Source of the DNA: Moraxella sp.
GTDB taxonomy: Bacteria; Pseudomonadota; Gammaproteobacteria; Pseudomonadales; Moraxellaceae
DNA: 64,000 nt
Reading direction: 5' to 3'
NCBI GenBank assembly: GCA_030528385.1
Contig: JAUMYZ010000009.1
Coordinates: forward strand, 1 to 64,000
Below the pieces are notes generated by a model. The model did not search any database. It was not told where the DNA came from and saw only the letters and a program-made list of their open reading frames with translations. Within the stretch, counting starts at the first letter, position 1. Each line of letters begins with the position of its first letter. This document shows positions 44,479-55,582 of this stretch, in pieces. A program made the position numbers and the translations under genes.

Positions 44479-46326
44479 TTAGTGATTGCTGCTTAAGTTG
44501 CGTAATTTTGCATAATAACCGTGTTGCTTTAGTAGGGTTTGGTGTGAGCCTTCTTCAATAATTTTGCCTTCATCCATGACAATAATGCGGTCTGCCTGTT
44601 CAATGGTGGTTAGGCGGTGAGCAACAATAATGCTGGTGCGTCCTTTCATTAGGTGTTCAAGTGCTTGTTGTACTAGGCGTTCTGATTCGTTGTCCAGTGC
44701 GCTGGTGGCTTCATCAAGCAACAAAATGGGCGCATCTTTTAAAATTGCTCGGGCGATAGACACGCGCTGTCGTTGTCCGCCTGAAAGTTGACTGCCATTG
44801 GCACCAATGGGTTGGTGCAATCCCATGGGGTGCTTATTGACCACTTCTAATAAGTTTGCCGCCTTTAGAGCTTGCATGACTTCATCTTCGCTGGCGTTGG
44901 GGCGGGCATAGCGCACATTTTCTAATAAGGTGTCATCAAATAAAAAGATGTCTTGAGAAACCAACGCAAATTGTAAGCGCAGATTGGTCAGTGTCAACTC
45001 TTTGATGTCCACACCATCTAACAAAACCGTGCCTGCGCTGGGACTAATAAAGCGTGGCAATAAATTGACCACCGTACTTTTGCCTGAGCCAGAACGCCCA
45101 ACAAGGGCGACTTTTTCACCTGCGCTGATATTTAGGTTAAAATCATCTAAGGCCTTGCGATTTTCGGTTTTATATTGTACATCAATATGGCAAAACTGCA
45201 AGTTGCCAGCAACCTTTTGTAGTTCGCGTTTGCCTGTGTCTTCTTCGGGTTTGGTGTCCAAAAATTCGCACACAGAATCGGCTGCCAAAAACATGGTTTG
45301 CATGGGAATGCTGATGTTGGCAAGGTTTTTGATGGGGCCAAACATTTGCATCATGGCAACAATAAATGCCATAAATTCACCAATGGTGGTAATGCCATTT
45401 TGACTTTGCCATAAAGCAATAAAAATGACCACTGCCAATGCAAGTGAGCCAATCACTTCACTGATGGGTGAACGAGCCGCCATGGCTTGAGTGATTTTTT
45501 TATTTAATCTGACGATGGTGCCATTGACGTAGGCAAAACGCTGCGTCGCTTGGTTTTGACCGCCGAACAGTTTGACCACGCGATGTCCTTGGTGGGTTTC
45601 ATTGACGGTGTTGTTTAAGGAACCAATGCTTAGTTGGGCGCTATTGATGATGTCTTTTAAGCGATTGCGATAATAGCGAGAAAGCATGGATAAAATAGGA
45701 AACATCACCAAAATAATCAAAGTCAGTTGCCAATTTAGATAAAAAAGCACAAATATTAAGCCAATCACAATCAGTGTGTCGCGTGTCAAAACAATAAACA
45801 CGTTGCTGGCATTGTTGATGGAGTTTTCTGCCATTTGTACCATGTTCATCAAGATATGACCAGACGGTGTCTCTTGATGGTATTGTGAAGATAGGGTGAG
45901 CATTTTATCAAACATGTCGCGGCGCAAATGACTGATGGCAACAACCGCCACCCAAGTCATCAAATACTGACTGACAAATCGGCAAATGCCACGAAAAATG
46001 ACCAGCGTCATAAAGAATAATGGCACAATCCATATTTTATTTGTCGTCCCCCAAATCAGATGATGAAAACTTTCTTTATAATGATTTATTGTGGCCAATA
46101 GACCATCGGCTTGCTGCACAGGAGCAATGCCATCGGGAATGGCAAAACCTTGATTGACTAGTGGTGCAATAAATGCTGCCAGATAACTTTCGGTCAATGC
46201 CACACCAACAATCGCCAATAGCGCAAAAAAAACCCGCCATTTATAAGGTTTGACATACGTCATCAAACGCATAAAACTGTGGGTGTCTTGTTTGGTAAAT
46301 AAACCAAAAGTGAGTTTTTCTATCAT
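44479..46326 (-). CDS. msbA: Lipid A-core flippase (ABC transporter)
   Basis: A 615-residue half-transporter with an N-terminal six-helix domain (about 1-345) and a C-terminal nucleotide-binding domain. Walker A is GRSGSGKST, the signature LSGGQRQRVSIARAIL, Walker B LLLDEATSALD and the H-loop IVAHRLTT. MsbA dimers flip lipid A-core across the inner membrane. The placement among glycosyltransferases rather than next to lpxK supports a lipooligosaccharide role for the locus. A less likely alternative is a different lipid-linked-glycan exporter. The N-terminal extension is about 30 residues longer than E. coli MsbA (582). Confidence 0.88.
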   Translation of the reverse strand: MIEKLTFGLFTKQDTHSFMRLMTYVKPYKWRVFFALLAIVGVALTESYLAAFIAPLVNQGFAIPDGIAPVQQADGLLATINHYKESFHHLIWGTTNKIWIVPLFFMTLVIFRGICRFVSQYLMTWVAVVAISHLRRDMFDKMLTLSSQYHQETPSGHILMNMVQMAENSINNASNVFIVLTRDTLIVIGLIFVLFYLNWQLTLIILVMFPILSMLSRYYRNRLKDIINSAQLSIGSLNNTVNETHQGHRVVKLFGGQNQATQRFAYVNGTIVRLNKKITQAMAARSPISEVIGSLALAVVIFIALWQSQNGITTIGEFMAFIVAMMQMFGPIKNLANISIPMQTMFLAADSVCEFLDTKPEEDTGKRELQKVAGNLQFCHIDVQYKTENRKALDDFNLNISAGEKVALVGRSGSGKSTVVNLLPRFISPSAGTVLLDGVDIKELTLTNLRLQFALVSQDIFLFDDTLLENVRYARPNASEDEVMQALKAANLLEVVNKHPMGLHQPIGANGSQLSGGQRQRVSIARAILKDAPILLLDEATSALDNESERLVQQALEHLMKGRTSIIVAHRLTTIEQADRIIVMDEGKIIEEGSHQTLLKQHGYYAKLRNLSSNH

Positions 46327-47187: not shown

Positions 47188-47299
47188 AAAAACTCCTAGT
47201 GAAAAAAGCAGTCTTTCGTGGTTTTTTTGTGATAAAAGTGTTAGTATATGGGATTTTATGCTGACACTTATGTAAAAATTGTCTGGATTTGGGTTGTTT

Positions 47300-48184
47300 A
47301 TGAAATTTTCTATTCTGGTGGTTAATTATAACACCGAACAACATATTCACCAATTATTAAGTGAGTTGTCCAAACAAACTCTAAGCAAAGATAAATGGCA
47401 AGTCATCATCGTCAATAACAATCAAAATGATGTGTTAGGTGATACGCTTGTCTGCTTTGACCAAAGCATTCACCTAAAAATCATCACTTCGCCACAAAAT
47501 ATTGGCTTTGGGCGTGCGATGAATTTGGCGGCGCAACACGCAAATGGTGAACATTTGTTAATTACCAACCCTGATATTGTCATAAAAAACGACAAGTTTT
47601 TGAGTGAATTTTTGCACCACTTACAAAAAACGCCAAACTATGGTGTGGCAACTTGTCAACTTCTAAATGACAAAGGCGAAGACAAATCTGAGTTTTATGA
47701 CTTTGAATTTTGCGAGCGACTGGGAGTGGCGGAGCGCATTGCTTGGTTTAGTGGCGCTTTTTTGGCAATTTGCAAAGAAACGTATCAACGCATTAAAGGG
47801 TTTGACCCCGATTTTTTTATGTATTGTGAAGATGAAGATTTGTGTTTGCGCGTCGGGCGTTTGGGGCTGTCTTTATTAAAAATCAATGAATTGTCCTTGT
47901 ATCACCAAGGTGGGGCAAGTGAGCCGCTAAAAGGTTATGATTTTTTTTATCGCTGGTTTCGCTCACAACTTTTGTTTGCTTATAAACATTTTGATAAAAC
48001 AAAGTTTGATGGTCTTTTGCAGCAGCTACAAAACAAATCTGCCAAAAAACTCAAAATTTATCAGAGCATTGCCTTTTTGCCAATAGCGCGTTATAAAACC
48101 AAACAAAATCAATGGCAAGCAATGTCAGATGTGGTACAAAAAACCCAAAAACAAGGCGCAGATTGGCTGTATTTTCGCCCTTAA
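47300..48184 (+). CDS. Glycosyltransferase family 2, rhamnosyltransferase-like
   Basis: A 294-residue GT2 protein. FSILVVNYNTEQHIHQLLSE, NIGFGRAMNLAAQHANGEHLL with ITNPDIVI, RIAWFSGAFLAICKETY, and FDPDFFMYCEDEDLCLRVGRLG are the blocks of the WbbL/RfbF rhamnosyltransferase group. With rfbBDAC nearby, L-rhamnose is the best-guess donor, by inference. ATG 47300 is used. It and the next gene lie on the plus strand, opposite to the rest of the locus. Confidence 0.85.
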   Translation: MKFSILVVNYNTEQHIHQLLSELSKQTLSKDKWQVIIVNNNQNDVLGDTLVCFDQSIHLKIITSPQNIGFGRAMNLAAQHANGEHLLITNPDIVIKNDKFLSEFLHHLQKTPNYGVATCQLLNDKGEDKSEFYDFEFCERLGVAERIAWFSGAFLAICKETYQRIKGFDPDFFMYCEDEDLCLRVGRLGLSLLKINELSLYHQGGASEPLKGYDFFYRWFRSQLLFAYKHFDKTKFDGLLQQLQNKSAKKLKIYQSIAFLPIARYKTKQNQWQAMSDVVQKTQKQGADWLYFRP

Positions 48185-48223
48185 AATGTATATAAACTTT
48201 TGTTGCCAATAGCAAGGAAACTC

Positions 48224-48922
48224 ATGAACAATCCAGTCGTGCGTGATGACATCACGTTGTGTCTAACCATCGGCAAACGCCCCAATGAATTAAGGCAGAC
48301 GTTACAAAGTCTGTTGTCCAAAGTGCAGTTTAAACACATCATTGCCATCAATGATTTTGGCGATGAAGCGACCAATGCGGTTTTTTGTGCATTGTGTCCA
48401 CAAGGTGAGCTAATCAGTTTGGGTTATCATCTGGGACATCATCGGGCGGTGGACTTGATGTATGCTAAAATTGCCACGCCTTATGTGCTGCACTGTGAAG
48501 ACGATTGGTTGTTTGATTCTGTGCCCGAATTTGACTGTATTTTAAGATTTTTGGCAAGCGAACCAAACATCAGCATGGTATGTTTGCGCAAAATGTCGGA
48601 CATGAATTTTGATGAGCAACAGCAAAGTCAAATCATCCATCGTTCTACGGGGTACTTAGACATTGTAGAGACACACGCAATCCATGATCAGTGGTATGGT
48701 TATACTTTTAATCCACACATTGCCAGTATCAATACATGGAAAGCGTGGGCGCCTTTTGCCAGATTTAAAAAAGAAAGGCACATCTCCCGAACATTGCGTC
48801 GCCAAAACAAACATTTGGTTTATTTGGAGCAGGGAAATTGCCATCACATTGGTTTTAGCAGCATTGCCAACCCCCAACCAGCCACACTGCTAGGAAAAAT
48901 AAAGGTCAAACTTTTTGGTTAG
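48224..48922 (+). CDS. Glycosyltransferase-like GT-A protein
   Basis: A 232-residue protein with GT-A character: DDITLCLTIGKRPNELRQTLQSLL at the N-terminus, YHLGHHRAVDLMYAKIATPYV and HCEDDWLF (D-x-D equivalent). GYTFNPHIASINTW resembles an acceptor loop. The family is not certain. ATG 48224 has AAGGA 5-6 bp upstream and follows the rhamnosyltransferase-like gene by 39 bp. Its stop overlaps the convergent two-domain transferase by 4 bp. Confidence 0.72.
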   Translation: MNNPVVRDDITLCLTIGKRPNELRQTLQSLLSKVQFKHIIAINDFGDEATNAVFCALCPQGELISLGYHLGHHRAVDLMYAKIATPYVLHCEDDWLFDSVPEFDCILRFLASEPNISMVCLRKMSDMNFDEQQQSQIIHRSTGYLDIVETHAIHDQWYGYTFNPHIASINTWKAWAPFARFKKERHISRTLRRQNKHLVYLEQGNCHHIGFSSIANPQPATLLGKIKVKLFG

Positions 48923-50520
48923 GGATTGGGGTTTTCTTGCTTCATTTGCCATAATATCACGTACTTGTCCAGCGTGTACCCAAAAGAAGCACACGCCAAA
49001 ATAAAACCATATACGCCACCCATAAAATCAGCACGGATAAAGTATTCGCGAACAAAGCAAAACCATGAATGCAATAAGATGCCAGCAATGGAAGTTTTTT
49101 TGCCTTTTTGGTGTTTCTCGTTTGCCCAATCATGGCTGTAGCGAACGTTTTTATACAAAAAATGGTGCAGATTGTCGTTGGTCAGGTGAGAAAGATAACC
49201 TGCCAAAACTTGGGTCGGTGCACCTTGCTGGTCAAGTGATTCGTGCACTTCTAGGTCAGAATAGGTGAATTGTTTATTGGCGTACAGGCGAGCCAACTTG
49301 TCGGTATACCAAGCCTTTGGCTGAACTTCTATGCCACAAAATGTGTTGACGCGGGCGACTGCAAACACCTTGTCTGTTTGTAGGGGCTGGCTAAGCACGT
49401 GGGCAATGGCTTGGCGCAAAGTTTGGTCAAGGCGTTCATCGGCGTCCAAAACCAACACATAATCGGATGTGGCATGGCTTTGTGCAAGTTGGCGCTGTCG
49501 TCCAAAACCTTGCCAATCGGTATTAACAAACCATTTTGCACCAAACTGCTGGGCAATCTCTTGGCTGTGGTCGGTGCTGCCACTGTCTAAGATGATGATT
49601 TCGTCGGCAATATCATGCACAGTGTCCAAACAAACTTTTAAATGCTTGCTTTCATTTTTGACAATCATCACCAAAGATAAAGTAGATTTTTTATTAGATA
49701 AATCAATAGGTTGTAATTTTTTTGCCATATCCACTGAGTTTAAAAAAGCGGTTTTGGCTTGATTGTGGCTCAAATCATAAAGGCAGGCATATTTATTGAA
49801 AGTATATTGGCTAAATAATAAAGCATAAAGCAGCCCATAGCGTCCTTGTAAAAATCGCCCATCAAACAGGTATTGTTTAAAAAATGCCCACAGCGGATTT
49901 AAGACAATTTGGTGGGGGACGCTTTTTTTGCCTTGTTTGTGGCGGTCATCTGCCCATGCTTTGGCGTATTGCAGACGTTTTTCTAGCCAAAATTTGGGCG
50001 TGGGGGCGGTGTGATGTTCCAAAAAACCAGTCAGTTTTGCGGTATTGGCACCATCTAGCGCCACAGATTCATGCACCAAGTTATTGTTGTATTGGAACTT
50101 TTTGGGGTATAAGCGCCAATGGGCTTTGACGCCCCAGTACGGATTGTCAATTTGCTGACCAAAAACAAAATCTAGCCGTTTAATGCCGTAAACTGTGTTG
50201 GCAGGCGCGTTATTGATGGTCTGTAAAATGCTGTTTTTGAGCGTCGGAGTAACAACTTCGTCGGCATCAAGTGTTAAAATCCAGTCGCCAGTGGCATGGC
50301 TTTGTGCAAGTTGGCGCTGTCGTCCAAAACCTTGCCAATCGGTATTAACAAACCATTTTGCACCAAACTGCTGGGCAATCTCTTGGCTGTGGTCGGTGCT
50401 GCCACTGTCTAAGATGATGATTTCGTCGGCAAAATCTGCCACACTTGGCAGCGACAACGTCAAATTGTGTGCTTCATTTTTAACAATCATCACCACAGAT
50501 AAACGATACGCTTTTGTCAT
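48919..50520 (-). CDS. Two-domain family 2 glycosyltransferase (LgtF/WaaE type, Lgt3-like)
   Basis: A 533-residue protein made of two complete WaaE/LgtF-type GT2 domains. Domain 1 (about 5-265) opens SVVMIVKNEAHN, with DxD in LTLDADEVV (D85/D87); domain 2 (about 280-533) opens SLVMIVKNESKH, with LVLDADERL. LgtF-family enzymes add glucose to the lipooligosaccharide inner core; Moraxella catarrhalis Lgt3 is reported to have two transferase domains, so this is probably its counterpart. Each domain carries the same DEIIILDSGSTDHS stretch; at the DNA level 142 bp are identical (49469-49610 and 50291-50432) while the rest of the halves differ widely. ATG 50520 has AGGA upstream. Confidence 0.88.
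   Translation of the reverse strand: MTKAYRLSVVMIVKNEAHNLTLSLPSVADFADEIIILDSGSTDHSQEIAQQFGAKWFVNTDWQGFGRQRQLAQSHATGDWILTLDADEVVTPTLKNSILQTINNAPANTVYGIKRLDFVFGQQIDNPYWGVKAHWRLYPKKFQYNNNLVHESVALDGANTAKLTGFLEHHTAPTPKFWLEKRLQYAKAWADDRHKQGKKSVPHQIVLNPLWAFFKQYLFDGRFLQGRYGLLYALLFSQYTFNKYACLYDLSHNQAKTAFLNSVDMAKKLQPIDLSNKKSTLSLVMIVKNESKHLKVCLDTVHDIADEIIILDSGSTDHSQEIAQQFGAKWFVNTDWQGFGRQRQLAQSHATSDYVLVLDADERLDQTLRQAIAHVLSQPLQTDKVFAVARVNTFCGIEVQPKAWYTDKLARLYANKQFTYSDLEVHESLDQQGAPTQVLAGYLSHLTNDNLHHFLYKNVRYSHDWANEKHQKGKKTSIAGILLHSWFCFVREYFIRADFMGGVYGFILACASFGYTLDKYVILWQMKQENPNP
49469..49610. repeat. 142-bp perfect intragenic repeat, copy in domain 2
   Basis: Identical base for base to 50291-50432 and in the same orientation. 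It encodes residues about 304-350 of the two-domain transferase. Sequence similarity drops sharply on both sides, which points to recent gene conversion or duplication and not to general conservation. Confidence 0.95.
50291..50432. repeat. 142-bp perfect intragenic repeat, copy in domain 1
   Basis: Partner of 49469-49610, with an offset of 822 bp, which is exactly 274 codons. It encodes residues about 30-76. Recombination between the copies would delete one domain-equivalent and keep the reading frame. Confidence 0.95.
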
Positions 50521-50545: not shown

Positions 50546-52108
50546 TTATTGATTTAATGTGGCCAATTCTTGAGATGTTGGTTTTAGTAGGGCACCGTCA
50601 AATTTTTCTATGTTGTGATAATCATCAATTTTATTGCCAAATATCTTAACCATAGACAGGGATTGGGCTTGATGGTGATTAATAAAGGTGTTATTGGCTT
50701 GATTGTTTGTTTTGATGCCCAGCCATTCAGACAAAAACCACACAAAACCAAATCCTGTGATGATGTCGTGATTGGTTGTTTGCTCAATATCGTCAGAAGA
50801 GAGTTTGAATAAGGGCACTTGTAGCGAAAATTGTGATAAGCCGTGTTTGAGCTCCCGAGCCGTCAGCGCATGGTCGGACAGGTAAATCATGCTAAAGGGT
50901 TGTTTGTTGTTTTGTAAGCTGGCATATAACTCTTGCAAAAATATATCAGTTTGTAATAGACTTGATAAATAGTCCGACAAATAAGTATCTTGGAAAGTAA
51001 ATTTGGGTCTGTTAACGTCTACTCGCCGTGCAAAACGCGCATGCGAGCCCATTAAATGGACGATGATTAACTTTGGCTGTTTGTTGGGTTGGGCAAGAAC
51101 CCGATTGATTTCTTCTAGCAGCTCATAATCGTAGTGATTGCCCGTTGGTTTGGCTTCTTTAAGATAATACTGCTGGTCGGCATGATTGGCAATATAAGCC
51201 ACTTCGTTTTCATGTTCACCCAATTTGTCTTGATTGGAAATCCAAAAGGTCTGCATATTTGCTTTTTTGGCAAGGGTGATGACGTTATTGTGATATTCTA
51301 CTTCTGATGGGTTGGGAATGCTAAAAAACCTTGGTATGGATAAGGTGGTATAGGCCGCTGGCGCGATAAGCTGCGTGTATTTTGTGCCGTTGACATTCTC
51401 TAAAAAAGGCGACGTTTTGACAGGATAGCCATAGGCCGACAGATAGTTTCGTGAAGCACTCTCGCCCATCACAATCACATAATTTTGATAATGGGGCTGG
51501 TGGTGGGTGATTTGCCATGTGTCTTTTTTGTGTAACATCTCCTGCATTTTTTGTTGGTTGTCATGATAAATACGATATTGATGCAGTGAATGGGGGAAAA
51601 TATTTAACAGCTCTGAATAATCCATGCGCAGCTGTCGGTGTTTGACGGAAAAAATATTTACCACAAATAAGGCGATGAGCAAACACGCAAAAATTTGAAA
51701 AAAACGCCGCTGTTTTTTTGTGCTTTTTATGTGTTTGGTCAAAAAAAACACCACGCCACTAAGCGCCAGTAGCACAACAAAAGACAAAATGGTATAAGTG
51801 TCTGCAAACTCTGTGGCTTCAAGGGCATTGGTTTGTAACAGCGACGCTATCATGCCCACATTGGGGTAGCCGTATTGTAAGCCGATGGGTGCAAACAAAA
51901 TCCAAGCCATCATCAAAGGCAAAAAACAACCAAATACCCAAGGCTTAAGCCATAAACAATTTATCAACAGCCACAGCAATAAAATGTCATGAAAGCGCGG
52001 TGTGGCGCCAGACACCCCCCAACACAACAAAGTGGCAAACAAAAAATTTCCCAAAAAAATGAAATGGTTATAATGGGGCTTGTTGACCAAGCGTGTTATT
52101 ATTGCCAT
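50546..52108 (-). CDS. Phosphoethanolamine-transferase-like sulfatase-fold membrane enzyme
   Basis: A 520-residue protein. The N-terminal 155 residues hold about five membrane helices; the rest is a periplasmic alkaline-phosphatase/sulfatase-type domain. Motifs: VIVMGESASRNYLSAYGYPVKTSPFL (nucleophile region), FWISNQDKLGEHENEV, LIIVHLMGSHARF (H-x-x-G-S-H) and IYLSDHALTARE (S-D-H). EptA/MCR/CptA enzymes move phosphoethanolamine from phosphatidylethanolamine to lipid A, core sugar or glycan. Here the nucleophile position reads GES-A-S, and SDHA replaces the usual SDHG, so the group transferred is uncertain. ATG 52108 overlaps the upstream gene by 10 bp. Confidence 0.75.
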   Translation of the reverse strand: MAIITRLVNKPHYNHFIFLGNFLFATLLCWGVSGATPRFHDILLLWLLINCLWLKPWVFGCFLPLMMAWILFAPIGLQYGYPNVGMIASLLQTNALEATEFADTYTILSFVVLLALSGVVFFLTKHIKSTKKQRRFFQIFACLLIALFVVNIFSVKHRQLRMDYSELLNIFPHSLHQYRIYHDNQQKMQEMLHKKDTWQITHHQPHYQNYVIVMGESASRNYLSAYGYPVKTSPFLENVNGTKYTQLIAPAAYTTLSIPRFFSIPNPSEVEYHNNVITLAKKANMQTFWISNQDKLGEHENEVAYIANHADQQYYLKEAKPTGNHYDYELLEEINRVLAQPNKQPKLIIVHLMGSHARFARRVDVNRPKFTFQDTYLSDYLSSLLQTDIFLQELYASLQNNKQPFSMIYLSDHALTARELKHGLSQFSLQVPLFKLSSDDIEQTTNHDIITGFGFVWFLSEWLGIKTNNQANNTFINHHQAQSLSMVKIFGNKIDDYHNIEKFDGALLKPTSQELATLNQ

Positions 52109-52866
52109 GCTTGTTTAATCCACTTGCTTGGCAGCACATAGCGATACCATTTGCCCCCACCGCCACTGATGGCGTCTGGTGGGTTGATTTCCCCATGAAA
52201 AACGACAATTTTTGCCCCAATGGGTTTTTTGGGGGGAATAAAATAGGCTAGGGGGATTTTTTGTAGACAGTGGTATTTAAAGCTGACGCACCATGAGCTG
52301 TCCCAATATTCTAAATGATGGTGCTCGCGCAAGTAGTTGGACAAAAACGCCTGTTCGTGGCGGACTTGCTTGCGAATCTTTTCAAAGTTTTGTTCAAAAT
52401 GGCTTAACAGGTTGGGATAGGTGTTTTGCCCAACTTTAAAGCGATACACCGAGCTGTTGCCCACCATGCGCCACGGCTTTTTCCAATCACGGATAATTAG
52501 TACGCTGTCATCATGCACCGCTTTGTGGCTAAAAAAGCAGTCAATATTGTCCACAATGACAATGTCAATGTCCAAAAACAGTGCCGTGCCTTTTAAATCA
52601 TACAGCTCTGGTTTAAAAGTGGTGAGTTTTTTCCAGCCCCGTTCAGGCAAGCCATCAGGCAGGTTTAATTCTGGAATGGGCAGACAGCGAATTTCTGGAT
52701 AAATGCCCGCTGGGTCGTCGGTGAGACACACCATTTCAAAGGGTAAAGTCAAATGGCGACTGACCATGCGATACAGACGATTGACGTATTCGGCAGAATA
52801 TTTGTTGCCCCATTTCATACACAAAATGTAGTTTTTGTCGGTGGTGTGGTTAGTGGTGCTTGACAT
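52099..52866 (-). CDS. Glycosyltransferase-like protein with DxD motif
   Basis: A 255-residue protein with NYILCMKWGNKYSAEYVNRLY at the N-terminus and GTALFLDIDIVIVDNIDCFF, a D-x-D of the GT8-like kind. VGNSSVYRFKVGQNTY, HEQAFLSNYLREH and KIVVFHGEINPP (terminal His) follow. The order start-DxD-QxFL-HG is that of GT8-type retaining transferases, but the exact family is not certain. ATG 52866 has AAGGAG at 7 bp and overlaps the acyltransferase gene by 17 bp. It is followed by the phosphoethanolamine-transferase-like gene with a 10-bp overlap. Confidence 0.75.
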   Translation of the reverse strand: MSSTTNHTTDKNYILCMKWGNKYSAEYVNRLYRMVSRHLTLPFEMVCLTDDPAGIYPEIRCLPIPELNLPDGLPERGWKKLTTFKPELYDLKGTALFLDIDIVIVDNIDCFFSHKAVHDDSVLIIRDWKKPWRMVGNSSVYRFKVGQNTYPNLLSHFEQNFEKIRKQVRHEQAFLSNYLREHHHLEYWDSSWCVSFKYHCLQKIPLAYFIPPKKPIGAKIVVFHGEINPPDAISGGGGKWYRYVLPSKWIKQAWQ

Positions 52867-53776
52867 CACTTGCTCCTTGGCGGGGGATTTGAGCCAGCTC
52901 TTCGCCACTTAGTGCATAAATATTATCCACATTGGGCACGTGCTTAAAACGCCGATAACCCCACATATATTGATGGGGGAAGCGATTGACCATTTGGACG
53001 ATTTCGTCATTTAGGGCAGTGGTGGCAACCGTCATGTCTTTGTCATAGAGTTTGGGGTTGTCCAAGTTATCACAATAAATGTCAAAGCCTTGTCCGTCAT
53101 CGCGGCGCACGCAGGTTAAGCCAATCAGCGCACAGCCTGTTTTGTTGGCAAGTTTGGGCGTCAGCGTGCTTGACAGCGTCAGCACACCGAAAAAAGGCAC
53201 CACCACACCCCCTGAAAGGTCTGGCACATGGTCGGGCAAGATGATACTAAAGCCACCTTCTTTTAGGGTTTTAAAAATTGCTTTGACGCCTGTGCCATCG
53301 GTGGGGACAAGGGTGGCATTTAGGCGTTGTCTGCCTGCCAGCACAAATTCATTTGCCCGTGCGCCTTTGACGGGTTTGTACATGATGGTCGGTGCACCAA
53401 ACTGATTTAGCCATGCATTCATCATCTCCCAAGTGCCAAGATGGGGCACAATCGCCAACATACCTTTTGGGTTGTTTAGTGCCTGTATGAGCAGTTCTTG
53501 GTTGTGTACACTGTGGATTTGTTCTATACTCCACTCTGGCGGCATTGCCCAGCATTTGGCAGATTCCACCGCCGTTAGGCATTGATGGCGAATGACACGG
53601 CGAACCAACGCCAATCGCTCACACTCGTCCATCTCTGGATAAGCCAAGCATAGGTTGGTGTGGATGGTGGCAAACAACTTGGAGCGGGGCAGGGCGCTCA
53701 TTAAAGTGCTTGCCAAAAGCGCCAATGCTCGTAGCACAAACATTGGCACGTAGGCAATCAGATAAAAAGCGTTCAT
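52850..53776 (-). CDS. LpxL/HtrB-family lipid A acyltransferase
   Basis: A 308-residue membrane-anchored acyltransferase. One N-terminal hydrophobic helix (about 4-28) precedes the catalytic H112-x4-E117 motif in VPHLGTWEMMN. The family block DHVPDLSGGVVVPFFG follows, and HQYMWGYRRFK near the C-terminus matches the hallmark HxQYxWxxKRF end. LpxL-type enzymes add secondary acyl chains (laurate/myristate) to lipid A. Which position is acylated cannot be read. It starts 10 bp after aspS and overlaps the glycosyltransferase downstream. Confidence 0.85.
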   Translation of the reverse strand: MNAFYLIAYVPMFVLRALALLASTLMSALPRSKLFATIHTNLCLAYPEMDECERLALVRRVIRHQCLTAVESAKCWAMPPEWSIEQIHSVHNQELLIQALNNPKGMLAIVPHLGTWEMMNAWLNQFGAPTIMYKPVKGARANEFVLAGRQRLNATLVPTDGTGVKAIFKTLKEGGFSIILPDHVPDLSGGVVVPFFGVLTLSSTLTPKLANKTGCALIGLTCVRRDDGQGFDIYCDNLDNPKLYDKDMTVATTALNDEIVQMVNRFPHQYMWGYRRFKHVPNVDNIYALSGEELAQIPRQGASDVKHH

Positions 53777-53785
53777 AAACACCGA

Positions 53786-55582
53786 TTAGCTGTTTTGCTC
53801 TTTTTCGCGCACACGAATGCCCAGTTCACGCAGTTGCTTGCTGTCTACGACGGCAGGGGCGTCTGTAAGCGGACATTCAGCGGTTTTGGTCTTAGGAAAG
53901 GCAATGACATCACGAATGGAGCTTGCCCCAGTCATCAGCATGACCAAACGGTCAAGACCAAATGCCAATCCGCCATGTGGTGGCGCGCCGTATTTTAGGG
54001 CGTTTAACAGGAAGCTAAATTTCTCTTCGGCTTCGGCTTCGCTAATGCCCAGCGCTTCAAACACCGCCTTTTGCATTTCTAAGGTATTGATACGCAGCGA
54101 ACCCCCGCCAATCTCTGTGCCATTTAATACCATGTCATAAGCGATAGACAGGGCGGTTTCAGGCGAGTTTTTCATCTCTTCTACCGTGCCTTTGGGGCGA
54201 GTAAAGGGGTGGTGCATGCTTGTCCACTTACCATCGTCCGTTTCTTCAAACATCGGAAAATCCACAACCCACAGCGGCGCCCACTCGCATGTTGCCATGT
54301 TCAAATCATGACCGATTTTGACACGCAACGCCCCCATGGCGTCATTGACGACTTTGGCTTTGTCTGCCCCAAAGAAAATGATGTCGCCATTTTTAGCTTC
54401 GGTACGGCGAATAAGCTCCACCAAAACGTCATTGCTCATGTTTTTGATGATGGGTGATTGTAGTCCTGAGTCTTTGTCCACGCCGTTGTTGATGTTGGCG
54501 GTATCATTGACTTTGATATAAGCCAGACCCTTTGCCCCATAAATGCCGACAAACTTGGTGTAGTCGTCAATTTGTTTGCGGGTAATTTGTCCGCCGTTGG
54601 GGATACGCAGGGCAACGACACGACCTTTGGGGTCTTGGGCAGGCACAGAAAACACTTTAAATTCCACGTCGTGCATGATGTCAGCCACGTCCACAAGTTT
54701 TAGTGGAATGCGTAAATCTGGCTTGTCGGAAGCATAATCACGCATGGCATCGGCATAACTCATACGCGGAAAATCATCAAATTCCACGTCCAGCATGTTT
54801 TTAAACAAATCTTTGGTTAAGCCTTCGGCGATGTTCATGATGTCGTTATCGTCCAAAAATGACGTTTCAATGTCAATTTGGGTAAATTCAGGCTGGCGGT
54901 CGGCACGCAAATCTTCATCACGAAAGCATTTGGCGATTTGATAATAGCGGTCAAAACCTGCCACCATCAGCAGTTGCTTAAATAACTGTGGCGACTGGGG
55001 CAGGGCAAAAAACTCGCCTTGATGGGTGCGAGATGGCACCAAATAATCGCGAGCGCCTTCTGGCGTGGCGCGGGTCAAAATGGGGGTTTCTACGTCCAAA
55101 AAGCCCAGATTGTCCAAATAACGGCGAATGGTTGATGTGGCTTTGGCGCGAAACACCATGCGTTCTTGCATTTCGGGGCGACGCATGTCCAAAAAGCGAT
55201 ACTTTAAACGCAGCTCTTCTGAAACACTGGTAAATTCATCGTTAAGCTGAAATGGTGGGGTTTCGCTGGTGGCAAGCGTGTCAATCTCTTTGGCAAGCAG
55301 CTCTACTTGACCGCTTTTCATGTTTTTGTTTTCGGTGCCTTCATAACGGCGACGTACTCGTCCTGTGATTTTTAGCACGTATTCAGAACGGGCTTTGTCG
55401 GCGGTGGCAAAGGCTTCGGGCGTGTCTGGGTCAATCACAACTTGGAGCAGCCCTTCACGGTCGCGCATGTCCAAAAAAATGACGCCACCGTGGTCTCGGC
55501 GACGATGTACCCAACCGACAATGGTAATGGTTTGGTCAAGAAGTTCTTCGGTAACAAGACCGCAATAATGTGTGCGCATCAT
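53786..55582 (-). CDS. aspS: Aspartyl-tRNA synthetase
   Basis: A 598-residue class II synthetase. It has the N-terminal OB-fold anticodon domain ([21 protein letters not shown]) and motif 1 region [23 protein letters not shown]. Motif 2 is [20 protein letters not shown], a bacterial GAD insertion follows, and motif 3 is [12 protein letters not shown]. The length equals E. coli AspS (590). Two adjacent ATGs (55582 and 55579) start it. The acyltransferase gene follows by 9 bp, so aspS may lead the minus-strand glycolipid transcription unit, a possible link of housekeeping and envelope expression. Confidence 0.96.

Follow-up and report, generated by a model that had tools for sequence, protein, structure and literature searches.

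The two-domain gene, its setting and its internal repeat

The window, which is the whole stretch of 64,000 nucleotides of Moraxella sp. DNA analysed here, encodes a two-domain glycosyltransferase in what looks like an outer-core lipooligosaccharide (LOS) locus, and the neighbouring genes fit such a locus (Table 1). Along the window, MsbA is followed by glycosyltransferases, the two-domain gene, an EptA-like gene, the gene at 52099-52908, an LpxL-like gene and aspS. The EptA-like gene (50546-52108) encodes a sulfatase-family protein resembling phosphoethanolamine transferases (CptA/EptA), with scores below the NCBIfam cut-offs listed. Two plus-strand genes lie at 47279-48922 amid minus-strand genes; one is a GT2 gene, one has a sub-cutoff TIGR04440 match only, and the second of the two shares 4 nt with the 3' end of the two-domain gene. 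The product of the 52099-52908 gene has no Pfam or NCBIfam match, and its homologues beside a two- or single-domain transferase are 65-86% identical to it.

We compared this setting across 18 loci, leaving aside L042 (the match on contig 5 of the source genome) and letting some genomes enter twice. Eight of the 18 keep aspS, lpxL and the homologue of the 52099-52908 gene in order beside the transferase gene, and in two aspS lies 4-5 kb away on the other side. The OC locus of Acinetobacter baumannii is described as lying between ilvE and aspS (PMC4172580). The weak match on contig 5 was considered as a second twin gene and rejected, since its 555-aa open reading frame consists, by eye, of an unrelated first half and one GT2-like half.

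Table 1. Coordinates of the features discussed, in window numbering
Feature	Position	Strand	Remarks
MsbA lipid A exporter	44479..46326	-	TIGR02203 above cut-off
Two-domain GT2 glycosyltransferase, 533 aa	48919..50520	-	Pfam PF00535, two stretches
C-domain DXD motif (DADE, residues 359-362)	49435..49446	-	From the translation; just beyond the tract
Homogenised tract, C-domain copy	49469..49610	-	Gene nt 911-1052, codons 304-351; identical to the N copy; probable recipient
N-domain DXD motif (DADE, residues 85-88)	50257..50268	-	From the translation; just beyond the tract
Homogenised tract, N-domain copy	50291..50432	-	Gene nt 89-230; identical to the C copy; A31 and S45 of N type; probable donor
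Probable glycosyltransferase (guess from position)	52099..52908	-	Next to a two- or single-domain gene at 11 of the 18 loci compared
LpxL/HtrB-like lipid A acyltransferase	52850..53782	-	PF03279 above cut-off; below NCBIfam cut-offs
Probable aspS	53786..55582	-	Sequence recognition

The whole 533-aa protein scores 143 bits with PF00535 against a cut-off of 23.3, and each GT2 domain has an LDSGSTD and a DADE (DXD) motif, the motif pairs being 274 codons apart. With a PF00535 domain and a DXD motif found twice, the protein is predicted to be a GT2 enzyme of the GT-A type in both halves. Chondroitin synthase (PDB 2z86/2z87), a two-domain GT-A polymerase making a glycosaminoglycan, gives a distant profile match to residues 280-386 with E about 1e-6.

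The two copies of the tract agree at all 142 of their bases, and the identity cannot be extended by a single base on either side. The N copy spans base 2 of codon 30 to base 2 of codon 77 and the C copy the same positions plus 274 codons, so both are read in the same frame. An earlier note on this DNA had pointed out the perfect repeat, third codon positions included, its in-frame offset of 822 bp or 274 codons, and the strong difference of the flanks, and our analysis agrees on all three. All 46 whole codons are the same in both copies, the coordinates give the same spacing, and the nucleotide identity between the N and C halves of the gene is 67% for residues 7-29, 99% for residues 30-77, 41% for residues 78-120 and 45% for residues 121-256. 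A DNA search of the whole draft of the source genome (2.05 Mb, 99.98% complete) found no copy of the tract besides these two.

Given the amino acids and the codon usage of ten neighbouring open reading frames, the probability that all 46 whole codons agree is about 10^-16.7. In L010, the nearest relative, the corresponding N-domain segment is only 81% nucleotide-identical to the tract, which indicates that the tract DNA itself is not fixed by constraint. It follows from these two observations that the copying is younger than the separation from the closest species in the sample. The sequence thus points, as the earlier note had it, to one copy having been recently overwritten by the other, with synonymous sites that agree and are homogenised within and not between species.

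Recurrence, limits and probable direction of the copying

We searched 299 genomes of the family, one per species and the source genome included, with a match threshold of E 1e-60 or better. A match was found in 32 genomes, 27 with a two-domain and five with a single-domain gene. The 22 genomes of the genus (source included) comprise 13 with a two-domain gene, four with a single-domain gene, one with a weak match only and four with none (E 0.001); three of the five with a weak match or none are drafts that are 86-93% complete or contaminated. L030 and L035 duplicate the genes of L006 and L008; they entered a 29-row test and were removed from the 27-row tests and the trees. L003, L004, L005, L007 and L009 are not separate rows, and L011, L013, L015, L020 and L022 stand for them. 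The names of the Psychrobacter and Acinetobacter groups rest on P. luti (L006) and A. pseudolwoffii (L008).

In the 27 two-domain genes we compared every N half both with the C half of the same gene and with those of all other species, using 10,000 permutations. We found that in residues 30-77 the own pairs are 76.4% identical in nucleotides and the cross-species pairs 69.6% (reached by 0/10,000 permutations), while identical synonymous codons amount to 61.9% versus 48.4% (0/10,000). The nucleotide excess is still seen when the window, L018 and L034 are left out (73.9 versus 69.0%, 0/10,000). It is 83.8 versus 76.3% in the 13 Moraxella genes (0/10,000) and 69.5 versus 66.6% in the 14 genes outside Moraxella, L034 included (30/10,000), and for the 12 genes from Psychrobacter and Acinetobacter on their own it is not significant (67.4 versus 66.5%, 918/10,000). 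The homogenisation signal belongs to Moraxella and one further genus, not to Psychrobacter or Acinetobacter.

Outside the tract there is no nucleotide excess over the 27 species in residues 78-120 (48.1 versus 47.8%) or 121-256 (46.4 versus 46.1%). Residues 7-29 have a small own-pair excess in the 27 species (58.7 versus 56.7%, 4/10,000), and residues 121-256 a slight one in the 13 Moraxella genes (45.9 versus 45.3%, 365/10,000). Identical codons are in excess outside the tract as well, with 50.5 versus 46.4% in residues 121-256 (2/10,000) and 51.0 versus 44.2% in residues 7-29 (13/10,000), probably through shared codon usage, and hence the identical-codon measure is no clean control.

Seven of the 27 species, namely the window, L010, L011, L012, L014, L018 and L034, exceed every cross-species value in their row and column, L012 and L014 by less than 2 points over the next value. 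L010 and L011 may share one conversion event. In residues 24-90 the longest exact runs between a gene's own N and C halves are 142 nt in the window, 65 nt in L018, 54 nt in L021 and 45 nt in L014. The longest run in 156 cross-species Moraxella pairs is 40 nt, so that these four of 13 Moraxella genes stand above that range and the other nine fall within it. L034 has an own run of 67 nt. The earlier note had proposed to look at the identity of the repeat in relatives; the own-pair excess does recur there, with no other perfect run longer than 67 nt.

Trees were made from the 27 N and 27 C domain rows, for the tract and for the part outside it. Outside the tract, all N domains form one clade and all C domains another (SH-aLRT 100, quick tree). 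In the tract, the N and C labels need 10 changes versus one outside, and the N and C copies of the same gene are sisters in the window (support 100/96), L018 (100/98) and L034 (100/99). A tract tree constrained to keep the N rows together is rejected (AU p 1.4e-4). As reconstructed, the tree of the tract conflicts with that of the flanks. Among the 27 species, 36 alignment columns outside the tract distinguish every N domain from every C domain, and none inside it does; domain-specific residues stand just past the tract, at 80, 83 and 89.

The direction of copying can be judged from two sites. In 14 other species, 13 N domains have A at residue 31, where 12 C domains have V, and 13 N domains have S at residue 45, where 13 C domains have T. 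Both halves of the window gene carry the A31 and S45 types, so N probably overwrote C in the window. T45 in an N domain occurs in L018 alone, where C therefore probably overwrote N. The copying thus probably runs in both directions, with markers that are not absolute, since among the 26 other C domains of a wider set four carry A31 and four carry S45 (counted by eye).

We predicted the 3D structure of the protein, with a mean pLDDT of 82.4 from seven aligned sequences. In this model residues 30-77 cover a strand (33-38), a helix (45-51), a second strand (55-58) and a second helix (65-74). The tract ends before the strand 80-85, at whose end the N-domain DXD motif lies, and the C-domain DXD motif lies at the end of the strand 354-359. 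The model suggests that the tract is one beta-alpha-beta-alpha unit ahead of the DXD strand. In GT-A enzymes this beta-alpha-beta-alpha part is the nucleotide-sugar binding side. We infer that the unit could be shared by both halves, that its conservation leaves the DNA similar enough to recombine, and that the onset of divergence or selection marks the point at which copying ends.

Domain number, assembly and constraint as alternatives

The earlier note had read the repeat as a possible recombination switch, in which the 142-bp direct repeat drives deletion or expansion by 822 bp and so alters the number of domains and the branching of the LOS. We consider this very improbable. A perfect in-frame direct repeat of 142 bp is a good recombination substrate at which rare deletions are expected, the 259 residues given for the deletion product are correct arithmetic (533-274), and the number of domains does vary between species, with 13 two-domain and four single-domain cases among the 22 genus genomes. 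However, no form shorter or longer by 822 bp was seen in the 32 matching of 299 family genomes, with one genome per species. The three-domain product of unequal exchange that the note had foreseen did not turn up in these 32 genomes, since their open frames have at most 582 aa, and each of the 27 two-domain genes carries two motif sets and no more. The chimeric single-domain form, with an N head and a C tail, occurs in none of the 31 matching genomes examined; this count sets aside G053, the fifth single-domain match, which comes from another genus and has 43% identity over query residues 267-530. The four single-domain genes of the genus were considered as deletion products and rejected, as they align with N domains to their ends and form one group beside the clade of all N domains (support 81). 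The absence of perfect runs above 67 nt from the other two-domain genes argues that the long repeat is not conserved. Overall, the comparison gives no support for a switch that is used or selected.

An assembly artefact, in which two similar copies were collapsed into one sequence, is very improbable. The source assembly is a 20-contig draft, and a short read is about as long as the 142-bp tract, but the flanks and the reading frame are intact at both copies, and a less perfect pattern recurs in other assemblies, including the one-contig G012 (45 nt) and G004 (54 nt).

Functional constraint alone can hardly explain why the two halves resemble each other in this segment. No other part of either half is as well conserved, and this holds between species too (69.6% cross-species N-C nucleotide identity over 27 species). 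Against constraint alone stand synonymous codons that are homogenised more within than between species, a 19% nucleotide difference between the window tract and its N counterpart in L010, the nearest relative, and the N/C conflict between the trees of tract and flanks. The case that the earlier note had named as its refutation, constraint with diverged synonymous sites, does not hold in the window, where these sites agree. Constraint is likely the reason why the identity starts high enough for conversion.

Probable gene conversion of a donor-binding unit, and mosaic relatives

We regard it as highly probable that a shared donor-binding module undergoes recurrent gene conversion within the gene, and that the repeat in the window is the footprint of a recent ectopic conversion. 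An ancient fusion or duplication would have led to the two-domain GT2 enzyme now found in Moraxella, Psychrobacter and Acinetobacter. Both halves would have retained a similar donor-binding beta-alpha-beta-alpha unit (residues 30-77), near enough for homologous recombination, while the parts behind the unit would have diverged to about 45% nucleotide identity between halves. In Moraxella and the related genus, the unit would have been copied again and again between the halves of one gene, with the copied stretch ending where the domain-specific residues start (positions 80, 83 and 89). The outcome would be concerted evolution of the donor-binding side, with acceptor sides that remain distinct. 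The analysis shows the identity of the copies, its recurrence, the limits of the tract and the conflict between the trees. We infer that RecA-type recombination is the copying route and that both halves use the same sugar donor; neutrality or selection may have set the limits of the tract. A member of the ComEC family (PF03772) is found in the source genome, which is compatible with natural transformation but says little, as it is also found in 10 of 14 control genomes.

Conversion of this kind would turn a curious repeat into a measurable process: in a probable surface-sugar enzyme, a unit the size of a subdomain evolves in concert and the parts next to it diverge. It may guide functional work by pointing to the part of a two-domain GT2 enzyme that may be exchanged between two acceptor specificities. 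It also serves as a warning that trees of whole domains from these genes combine different histories. What looks new is that the homogenisation is confined to a subdomain and recurs inside one such gene; no paper on gene conversion inside a two-domain bacterial glycosyltransferase was found among the matches listed for open-licence PubMed Central titles and abstract openings.

Some relatives of the gene are mosaics. The single-domain gene L024 (L044:10563-11321) consists of a head of the M. lacunata type and a different body. It adjoins the same neighbours as the two-domain gene, namely aspS, lpxL and the homologue of the 52099-52908 gene, and a 4.8-kb stretch ending inside it aligns to M. lacunata with 90% identity overall. 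In a breakpoint test of its first 570 nt, with 8 of 141 informative sites set aside as being like neither side, 121 of the remaining 133 fit one breakpoint at residues 52-80, which 0 of 2000 shuffles reach. To the left of the breakpoint 23 of 29 sites are of the N type of the M. lacunata group, and to the right 98 of 104 are like the single-domain gene L023. Past about codon 190 it is only 50-83% like L023, so that more than one exchange is likely. In the pair L010 and L011, identity is 87.9% in residues 7-351 and 72.6% afterwards, with the drop near residue 362. In L032 and L037 (L052 and L053; two genomes of one genus) the C domain looks as if replaced: the N domains are 97.1% identical in nucleotides (residues 7-235) and the C domains 61.9% (residues 352-526), with a break near residue 255-262, outside the tract. 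These three cases suggest that some exchanges, not all, use the seam of the tract.

We speculate, quite tentatively, that the donor-binding unit is a standard exchangeable joint, kept as such by continual conversion between the two halves, with a seam near its end and the DXD motif at which acceptor-binding bodies are swapped. Near-identity of the unit within a gene, and its likeness from species to species, would let these bodies swap between LOS glycosyltransferases. If this somewhat doubtful extension were true, conversion would maintain the evolvability of LOS structure, and the breaks in L024 and in L010/L011 would be its products, while that in L032/L037 would not.

Several known systems can be set beside the proposed conversion. 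Lgt3 of M. catarrhalis is described as having two domains, A1 and A2, each with a DXD motif, and as adding glucose to the LOS inner core (PMC12373483). Its likeness to our gene, two glycosyltransferase domains with a DXD motif each, is one of description only, and the passages describing it make no mention of gene conversion (PMC12373483). The AT/KS and A/C domains of polyketide and nonribosomal peptide synthases are reported to evolve in concert by internal recombination, with repeated catalytic domains that are homogenised and cluster by gene cluster and not by position (PMC4256081). Unlike these synthases, the enzyme studied here has a 48-residue part of each domain homogenised and the rest of each domain distinct.

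In the OC loci of A. baumannii, GtrOC5/GtrOC29 and GtrOC19a-c are described as sharing a head and differing in the remainder, which is ascribed to recombination (PMC4172580); GtrOC5 and GtrOC29 are given as Glyco_transf_25 proteins (PMC10327509). The exchange there is between gene clusters of different strains, and the account of these genes does not mention homogenisation between two domains of one gene (PMC4172580). The likeness lies in an LOS locus bordered by aspS and in a mosaic of head and remainder such as that of L024 (PMC4172580).
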